In this document: positions 5,465 to 61,475 of the stretch, piece after piece | Layout: every line of letters starts with the position of its first letter | Position numbering within the stretch: position 1 is the stretch's first letter | Assembly: GCA_021841025.1 (NCBI GenBank) | Contig: JAKBWA010000064.1 | Span: 97,287-161,286, forward strand | DNA from: Bacillota bacterium | Lineage (GTDB): Bacteria; Bacillota; Sulfobacillia; Sulfobacillales; Sulfobacillaceae | Length of the DNA: 64,000 bases | Reading direction: 5' to 3' | Notes under the pieces: model-generated | Databases searched by the model: none | Told to the model about the DNA's origin: nothing | What the model saw: only the letters and a program-made list of their open reading frames with translations | Program-made: the position numbers and the translations under genes

Positions 5465-5582
5465 ACCTTGAGCCCCCTTACGCCTACGAAGTTAGCTGAC
5501 GGGTTCGGGCTGCGAGCATGCCCGTTGCAAAGCAATTCACCCCACGACTCACGGGTCCTCCGCTCCTTTGACAAGAATTCGG
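5465..5582 (-). promoter_or_regulatory. ydaO/yuaA (cyclic di-AMP) riboswitch
   Basis: Minus strand contains GGGGTGAATTG...CCCGAACCCGTCAGCTAACTTCGTAGGCG, the conserved core of the ydaO riboswitch. Confidence 0.93.
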
Positions 5583-5601
5583 CGTTATCAAGGATACTAT
5601 A

Positions 5602-51010: not shown

Positions 51011-52315
51011 CTAATCTCGAAATACCTCTCCCTGTTGCCACAACCGATATTGATCAAAAAAAGTAGGATAACTAATACGAACACTGTCTTCATCGTCAAG
51101 AACAACCGGTCCGTGTGCTGTTGCTGCAGCAACCGCTAACATCATAGCCATACGGTGATCGCCAAAAGTTTTGACCTCCCCGCCGCGTAAAGGGGTTGGT
51201 CCTTGCACAACCATGCCATCGGGGAGTTCCTCAATATGAGCTCCCAACGTGCTGAGATTTTCCACAGTCGCGCGAATCCGATCTGTTTCCTTGACACGTA
51301 ACTCGCCAGCTCCCCTAATTACCGTTTCCCCCGCGGCTTGAGAAGCCATTAACGCGATTAACGGAATCTCATCGACCATGTCGGGCACTTGGGCTGCGTC
51401 TACATTACGTCCTCTTAATGGATTATAGCCTATAGTAATGTTGCCAATTTGCTCATCATCCGCCTGACGATTTAGATTTACGTAAGTTCCCATTTTCTGC
51501 AGATGGAGGAAAAATCCCGTACGACGTAAACTAATTGATACGTCCCGCAACGTCAAATGGGACCCAGGCACAAGCGCCGCCAAGGCTGCCCAAAATGCTG
51601 CCGAAGAAGGATCTCCAGGCACATGAAATACTACAGGCTTTAGGGCTTGCCAGCGATTCACGGGCTCCACGCGAATGTTATTTTGATTTTGAGAGATTGT
51701 GATCCCCATTTGCTGCAGCATACGTTCCGTATGATCACGAGTCGGATAAGGCTCAACAATTTCGGTTGGTTCAGTTCCTTGCAATGCCGCTAGAATAATT
51801 GCCGACTTCACTTGTGCAGACGCCACAGGCATAGTATAAGTGATGCCCCGGATCGATTTGCCATGATATACTGTGACGGGTGGATAGCCTTCTGTAGTCG
51901 AGCAGAAAATTCCCATTTCACGCAATGGTTTAGCAACCCGTTCCATCGGACGTTTGGACAAAGACGCATCACCTATGAGTGTCCGGGGTTCACGAGAGAT
52001 GGACAACAACCCCATCGCTAAACGCATTGTCGTTCCAGAATTGCCGCAATCAATCTCCCGGGTTTGTGCTAACCAATGTGTCGGTCCCGGGGACGATAAA
52101 ATCCACTCATTGGAATTGACCTCGACCCGGACCCCAAGACTTTCCACTAAACGGCGGCTGGATAAAGTGTCTTGCGCCACCAGGGGATTGTTAATGTGTG
52201 TGAAACCGGCGACTAGACTGGAAAATAAGATGGCCCGATGTGTAATCGATTTGTCGCTCGGAGGACGCAAGGTTCCTTTAACAGGAATCCGGCGGGGTAA
52301 TAGTTCCATAGTCAT
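51011..52315 (-). CDS. aroA: 3-phosphoshikimate 1-carboxyvinyltransferase
   Basis: LRPPSDKSITHRAILFSSLV, GNSGTTMRL, RVKETDRIRA, FGDHRMAM. Confidence 0.96.
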   Translation of the reverse strand: MTMELLPRRIPVKGTLRPPSDKSITHRAILFSSLVAGFTHINNPLVAQDTLSSRRLVESLGVRVEVNSNEWILSSPGPTHWLAQTREIDCGNSGTTMRLAMGLLSISREPRTLIGDASLSKRPMERVAKPLREMGIFCSTTEGYPPVTVYHGKSIRGITYTMPVASAQVKSAIILAALQGTEPTEIVEPYPTRDHTERMLQQMGITISQNQNNIRVEPVNRWQALKPVVFHVPGDPSSAAFWAALAALVPGSHLTLRDVSISLRRTGFFLHLQKMGTYVNLNRQADDEQIGNITIGYNPLRGRNVDAAQVPDMVDEIPLIALMASQAAGETVIRGAGELRVKETDRIRATVENLSTLGAHIEELPDGMVVQGPTPLRGGEVKTFGDHRMAMMLAVAAATAHGPVVLDDEDSVRISYPTFFDQYRLWQQGEVFRD

Positions 52316-52342
52316 AATGGTGCTCCTTTCCAGACATTACAG

Positions 52343-52421
52343 AGAATCATTCGTTGCTTTGACACTCCCCACGGCGAAATCGGGGAGATTCTTGCGACAA
52401 ACACACTCACGTAATGATTCT
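52343..52421 (-). mobile_element. IS200/IS605-type right-end / omega-RNA-like relic
   Basis: Minus strand AAGAATCTCCCCGATTTCGCCGTGGGGAGTGTCAAAG hairpin typical of TnpB-element right ends; flanked by outer 9-bp inverted repeat AGAATCATT/AATGATTCT; no intact tnpB. Confidence 0.5.
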
Positions 52422-52572
52422 TCGTGTACCGGCATTTCACGCAGGGTTTCCTATTCCCGCTTGTTGAGTGTTTTGGCTGGGTTACTCTGTATCAAGTACA
52501 CATTCATCCCTGCCAAGGTCGTTGAGGCAAGCAACCACATGCTTTCGACAAGTACCCTTACATCCCCATGCT

Positions 52573-53418
52573 TTACGGCCTATCGGATAACCTTCTCTTA
52601 GGTGTTGCCTTGCGGCGGATTGCCGCCGATTGTCCTAGAGACTTTGGCCATTTTCCTTGCTGAATATCCTCATTCCATTTTTGAACCAAATGCGTAAAAG
52701 CGGAAAATGTCTCCTTAATGTTTTCCTGATTGGCCTGCAATATTTCTTGCCATAACTGGTCGTCGCTGGCACCAATCCGGGTTACATCAAGAAAACCGGT
52801 TCCAACCACATGGGGCCATAACGGGAAGCGCGCCTCATAGCTTTCAGCCAGTACCAATATCGCTGCAGAGATCAAATAAGGAGTATGGCTAACGATGGCC
52901 ATCAGCGTATCATGTTGTTCCAAGGGAATCCAAACCGGAACACTGCCCAAAACTGACATCCACTGCTCAATCACCGGCATGTCCGGGTCCAGACCGGTTC
53001 CTTTAACCACAAGACACGGATGCTCCGAAAACAGATCAGCATTACTGTGGACAAATCCGCGCACTTCCTTTCCCGCCATGGGGTGCAAAGACAACAAGGA
53101 AAAAGGAGAGCGAATTTGGGCATAAGCAGCTGAAAGACTTGTTTTGACCGAACTTACGTCCACAATAGTGCACCCGTGAGAGGATTCTAGTATGGTCTCA
53201 ACCCATTGACCCACTTTATTGATGGGCACGGACAAAACAATTTGGTCCACATCCTGGGCCCATTCTTCCCACCTTTTGTTGACAATAACGCCATGATCAG
53301 CAGCCATTGGCATAACATTTGCATTCACATCGTAACCAAATACCGTCCATCCGGCTTTAAGGCAGGCCTTAGCTATCGAGCCTCCAATAAGCCCGAGGCC
53401 AATTACTCCGACTCTCAC
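52573..53418 (-). CDS. tyrA: Prephenate dehydrogenase
   Basis: [41 protein letters not shown]. Confidence 0.93.
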
Positions 53419-61209: not shown

Positions 61210-61475
61210 AAAAAATAACCTTCAACCCTATGCTAAGGGACGAAGGCCTCTCCGTGGTGCCACCCTATTTTAGACTACTGAAGTCTCTTGTTTCCATACG
61301 GGTATCTCAACCGATATGGCTTCTTTGATAACGGTAGAAGAACCCGGCCAAGTCTACTCAATTTCGATTGGCTGCTCATGGGCCCATTCTCACGCAATCC
61401 CCTTATCGGCCTCTCACCAACACCGACTCGCTAAAAAGGTTACTCGGTGATACTCTTCCCATTCATCGCTAATAG
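61210..61475 (-). promoter_or_regulatory. T-box leader, Trp (UGG) specifier, upstream of trpEGDCFBA
   Basis: Minus strand AGCGATGAATGGG..., AAAATAGGGTGGCACCACGGAG T-box, CCTTCGTCCCT..AGGGTTGAAGGTTATTTTTTG terminator; specifier GAGAA-UGG-G-CCCATGAG. Confidence 0.93.

Follow-up and report, generated by a model that had tools for sequence, protein, structure and literature searches.

A probable internally deleted remnant of a TnpB element between tyrA and aroA in a Sulfobacillaceae genome

The window analysed here is a 64-kb stretch of DNA (G000:C48:97287-161286) from a genome of the same genus as those behind loci L049-L054. On its minus strand the genes run trpC, trpF, trpB, trpA, followed by aroF (DAHP synthase), tyrA and aroA. 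A gap of 257 bp (52316-52572) separates tyrA from aroA, and in this gap the original prediction had placed the right end of an IS605/TnpB element, in the form of a relic with no intact tnpB frame. The features recognised in and around the gap are as follows.

51011-52315, minus strand: aroA (EPSP synthase; Pfam PF00275), the downstream gene, with its own ribosome-binding site.
52343-52358, minus strand: former guide-position flank AGCAACGAATGATTCT, so assigned by its position directly 3' of the right end; it holds the outer arm of a dyad.
52359-52412, minus strand: right end, last 54 nt, ending GGGGAGTGTCAA; placed by identity to L011, BLASTN and a common end point.
52413-52415, minus strand: deletion junction, where most of tnpB has been lost together with the 5' half of the omega-RNA; placed from blocks that lie ~0.7-1.2 kb apart in relatives.
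52416-52508, minus strand: tnpB pseudogene, first ~30 codons, with a TAG at 52453-52451 and a 2-nt frameshift.
52509-52585, minus strand: decayed left end, including the TAA that now ends tyrA (52573-52575); aligned with the left ends of TnpB-bearing relatives.
52586-52590, minus strand: TTATC motif immediately 5' of the element, the presumed TnpA target or TnpB TAM; it precedes related left ends.
52573-53418, minus strand: tyrA (prephenate dehydrogenase; Pfam PDH_N and PDH_C, PF02153/PF20463; comparison with six relatives).

The predicted minus-strand right-end sequence was present in the tyrA-aroA gap. Dozens of IS605/TnpB right ends, from the genome itself and from the family, match its final 54 nt (minus strand 52412-52359); L011 is identical at 47 of these 54 positions. 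BLASTN of 52320-52620 against the genome itself returned a right-end block of 36-47 nt at many places (E = 9e-7 to 3e-6 and weaker), so similarity to transposon ends was found as predicted. Among the relatives, one or both blocks matched in 21 of 60, the best E value for the right end being 8e-12 over 54 nt. Matches of this strength for the right end far exceed what chance would give. When the copies were stacked on their right ends, conservation ended abruptly after ...GGGGAGTGTCAA (...GTGTCAA) and gave way to unrelated DNA, which places the end of the element at 52359. The terminal hairpin of the right end, CTCCCC/GGGGAG, is kept, with a decayed tip.

The description of the locus as a right-end relic held for the right end but was incomplete, since a left end and a 5' piece of tnpB are also present. 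The left end of relatives that aligns with the relic reads TTATC(A/C)..TGCGCCGTAAA...GGGGATATAAGG, and TTATC (or TTAGC) stands before the left end in related copies whose 5' flanks differ. By analogy with the way IS608 and ISDra2 work (PMC8612924), TTATC would be the target rather than part of the element. Deletion of the left-end CCCC arm in the relic has removed the subterminal hairpin, and folding of the relic left end as single-stranded DNA gave no hairpin (z = +0.42). Aligned over 95 columns with the start of tnpB in G001, the adjoining block (52508-52416) shows 78% DNA identity, and its translation, MNVYLIQSNPAKTLNKRE*ETLREM, compares with VTNVYLAQSNQIKGLDKSEYEALREM in G001. As predicted, no intact tnpB frame remains: ~30 codons are left, interrupted by the TAG and the frameshift. 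The protein of the relatives is TnpB (OrfB_IS605, 2.5e-21; Cas12f1-like_TNB, 1.5e-8; NCBIfam guided_TnpB, 1e-55), and in TnpB-bearing relatives (G001:C89, G002:C118, G028:C48) the tnpB-start block lies ~0.7-1.2 kb upstream of the right end. The right-end matches, the left end, the tnpB 5' piece and the TnpB domains of the relatives bear out both the IS605/TnpB origin and the relic status, and indicate that what survives is an entire TnpB-only element, shortened by an internal deletion to about 227 bp (52585-52359, minus strand).

The element is absent from the tyrA-aroA junction of all six congeners that have the operon (6/6), where the spacer is short or missing. The tyrA frame of the window continues into the left end and terminates at the TAA (52573-52575) inside CCGTAA, which left ends throughout the family conserve; tyrA now takes its stop codon from the insertion and has its last codons in the element. 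With the flanks joined after TTATC, the frame ends ...KRRLSATNDSL*, which is plausible, but the tyrA-aroA junctions of the relatives align weakly and are too diverged for base-by-base proof of the ancestral site or a base-exact comparison of a target-site duplication.

We propose that a TnpB-only (IS1341-group) IS200/IS605 element inserted 3' of TTATC at the 3' end of tyrA, presumably through TnpA acting in trans; Y1 transposase (TnpA) genes are found elsewhere in the genome. An internal deletion would then have taken ~0.7-1.2 kb and fused the tnpB start to the final 54 nt of the right end; later point mutations would have disrupted what was left of tnpB, destroyed the left-end hairpin and damaged part of the right-end one. 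The outcome would be an immobile non-coding spacer in aroF-tyrA-aroA, probably transcribed and without guide-RNA function, whose sole visible effects are the new tyrA stop codon and the longer tyrA-aroA spacer. What is observed is that both ends and the tnpB piece have homologues, together with the deletion, the absence from relatives and the loss of scaffold described below; the insertion may well have been neutral, and the relic is probably inert. Taken as a whole, we have high confidence in this account of a dead, internally deleted TnpB-element remnant in the operon.

The family is present in several copies in this genome, because a related tnpB (78% identity) occurs in C7, cut by the contig end, and right ends occur at the starts of C8, C74, C113 and C99. 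Since the draft contigs C7, C8, C74, C99 and C113 break at their ends inside TnpB elements of the family, intact copies were probably collapsed in the assembly. The PF07282 TnpB genes of the genome (L078-L084) were considered as the obvious source and set aside, as the family ends were missing from them in a simple pattern scan.

The junction is most simply read as the result of a deletion in place. It is also possible, if rather unlikely, that the element arrived short and already deleted, as a non-autonomous unit mobilised by TnpA like the PATEs described in Haloquadratum (PMC3119063) and Halanaerobium (PMC7290912). The relic has both ends within about 227 bp and no reading frame, and the genome holds other deleted derivatives (L034 in C81, L046 in C17). 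Against such an arrival, the left-end palindrome is lost, and BLASTN of the genome and 60 relatives found no other locus that joins the two blocks as the relic does.

Upstream of aroF lie a TTGACA-17-TATTAT box (54763-54735) and a T-box leader that precedes aroF-tyrA-aroA (54721-54480, minus strand; 88 bits, E = 3e-19, against an Rfam cut-off of 93 bits). With this box and leader upstream, the aroF-tyrA-aroA mRNA probably includes the relic in sense orientation, and the predicted transcription from the aroF promoter is plausible. The aroF T-box is accompanied by a terminator hairpin and a promoter, and its predicted specifier may be UAC (Tyr). Another T-box leader (61233-61475, minus strand, 116 bits) lies upstream of the trp genes, and a c-di-AMP (ydaO/yuaA) riboswitch lies at 5466-5594 (minus strand, 85 bits). 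A search of the window at Rfam gathering thresholds returned a T-box and a c-di-AMP riboswitch only, with no match at the relic.

The original prediction further took it as conceivable that such a transcript yields an orphan omega-RNA with the aroA leader at its guide position. To define the omega-RNA of the family, we used an alignment (A2) of 19 right ends from TnpB-bearing and TnpB-less copies. Four helices emerge in its consensus, and a few of their pairs show double changes (at pair 9-31, 10 copies have C-G and 8 have G-C). An invariant AGAC near the 5' end of the scaffold is complementary to the 3' GTGTC; this complementarity, together with the ISDra2 omega-RNA (PMC10097598), suggests an AGAC/GTGTC pseudoknot in the family. 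In ISDra2, the 116-nt scaffold with its pseudoknot is what the structure shows and what active trimmed RNAs retain (PMC10097598). With a covariance model of 119 positions built from 19 related copies (R1), intact or well-preserved copies scored 110-147 bits and the relic 25.6, so the comparison with the omega-RNAs of other copies went against the prediction.

Aligned with the scaffold, the relic is identical at 47 of 54 positions in the 3' part, whereas the 25 of 57 in the 5' part reflect fitted tnpB 5' sequence and not true homology. Of about 119 scaffold positions, the relic thus has the final 54 and no others: 4 of the 11 pairs of helix 3 survive, the long hairpin is without its 5' arm, and AGAC, the putative 5' partner of the pseudoknot, is absent from the aligned 5' stretch of the relic. 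A 72-nt relic RNA folds no better than its shuffles (z = -0.57). The terminal hairpin alone reaches -13 kcal/mol (z = -1.6), and this residual folding could be residual constraint or chance. An active orphan omega-RNA at the relic is unlikely, because the 5' half of the scaffold is missing and the R1 score is low.

The full route, from the aroF promoter through processing and loading into a TnpB encoded elsewhere to guiding by the aroA leader sequence, is very improbable. The orientation is right, the relic presumably shares a transcript with aroF, fragments of related TnpB genes lie at contig breaks of the genome, and the relic still has its right end next to a guide-position sequence that is unique in the genome. 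However, what is gone includes the invariant AGAC and the 5' arm of helix 3, in a scaffold of the kind that the active trimmed ISDra2 RNAs retain with its pseudoknot. In addition, with up to 2 mismatches allowed, the genome has no second target for the guide-position sequence; the relic would be the only guide match, and no TTATC adjoins it any more. That the hairpin in the operon gap is instead a regulatory element of the aro operon unrelated to transposons (an attenuator, terminator or RNA-processing site) is barely credible, as it is missing from the same operon in six congeners, no terminator-like site was called and no Rfam match was found there, and the strong transposon-end homology contradicts it; a terminator at the relic was also rejected for want of a T-run.

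An outer dyad, AGAATCATT/AATGATTCT, had also been predicted and is present (52343-52351 and 52413-52421), but a functional meaning did not hold up. Its outer arm lies in the flank, outside the element, and its inner arm in the tnpB fragment. Perfect 9-nt inverted repeats with a loop of <=100 nt number 67 in the 64-kb window (~1 per 950 bp, or about 0.27 per 257 bp), and one such repeat arises in 4.7% of shuffles of the gap. The dyad was rejected as a functional structure on account of this chance-level frequency and because it straddles the element boundary.

Several right ends of the family have no preceding tnpB. Near-identical elements about 330-350 bp long and free of coding sequence lie at six loci in the genome (L182, C37:19717; L040, C38:67456; L183, C27:98393; L181, C52:478; L180, C92:286; L179, C100:36780), five of them seen complete and the one in C100 cut by the contig end. 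The layout of these mini-elements is TTATC|CAGTGCGCCGTAAAACCC..., a conserved body of ~200 bp, a complete omega-RNA scaffold (116-124 bits) and GTGTCAA, with differing flanks. Matches to the body occur in 15 of 34 family genomes, at >130 places. At differing cut-offs for the two, matches to the omega-RNA far outnumber those to tnpB in G013 (at least 31 vs 3, the latter partial or broken), G021 (at least 31 vs 4) and G000 (23 at E <= 0.001 vs 2 at E <= 1e-20). Most of the omega-RNA copies examined belong to homogeneous TnpB-less elements, and this genome and 14 other family genomes contain many near-identical copies of TnpB-less mini-elements, most of which have kept the omega-RNA scaffold intact and are flanked by different guides.

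Other arrangements were seen alongside these. A second coding-free variant (L253-L260, in G010, G019, G021, G024, G029 and G013) shares with these mini-elements the left end and the body, with the 5' module GGTTGTCTCCCGCAATCGTGGGAGACGTAAAATGTATCGCGTCGTCA; its 3' RNA differs and ends near CAGAATCTCCGCCCTTTAGGGCGGGGAGGTTCA. A permissive Rfam search with three loci of each kind of mini-element gave no match, only sub-threshold chance hits. L034:1846-2172 (G000:C81) is a deleted TnpB element in which the 5' part of tnpB is joined to a good omega-RNA (127.6 bits), and L046 (G000:C17:2997-3099) is short, made up of a left and a right end, its scaffold having decayed (22.8 bits). In the PMC literature on TnpB-less omega-RNA elements, with subscription papers outside its scope, we found PATEs and nothing like the mini-elements.

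On their sequence, the mini-elements are candidate guide-RNA-only mobile elements. We suggest, tentatively and with somewhat less than even confidence, that in this genome and much of the Sulfobacillaceae the family has produced coding-free, guide-RNA-only parasites, each made of a left end, a conserved non-coding body, a complete omega-RNA and a right end, and carrying another guide at every site. They would move with a borrowed TnpA and have their sites protected or restored by a borrowed TnpB, and the relic would be a broken cousin and not a member. The earlier idea of an orphan guide fits the mini-elements, not the relic. Taken alone, the relic is ordinary, an example of a TnpB element that died through internal deletion within an amino-acid operon and left tyrA a stop codon. 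Its value is as a pointer to omega-RNA copies that greatly outnumber TnpB genes in the family, and the sibling mini-elements are the more interesting lead. The excess of omega-RNA and the TnpB-less elements make the use of TnpB in trans by non-autonomous transposons directly testable.

The relic resembles TnpB-only IS1341-group elements of Sulfobacillaceae (L043 in G026, L030 in G002) in its left end, TTATC flank and tnpB start, and the terminal 12 nt of its right end are the same as theirs. In contrast to those elements, it is without ~0.7-1.2 kb of tnpB and the 5' half of the omega-RNA, and carries a nonsense codon and a frameshift. Since only ~30 codons of tnpB remain, with the TAG and the frameshift, the relic is a remnant of an IS1341-group element rather than a working member. 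It shares with PATEs and core-deleted IS605 elements (Haloquadratum, PMC3119063; PATE-like elements of Halanaerobium, PMC7290912) a short, non-coding form with an internal deletion and both ends. Unlike PATEs, it is single-copy, and has lost the left-end palindrome while keeping the right-end hairpin; what it retains of tnpB is the 5' end, whereas they keep the 3' end. The ISDra2 omega-RNA (reRNA; PMC8612924, PMC10097598) has a scaffold of 116 nt, compared with the 119-position model in the Sulfobacillaceae family, whereas the relic has the last 54 nt of the scaffold only. As in ISDra2, this sequence comes from the right end of the element, and the guide would be the 3' flank.
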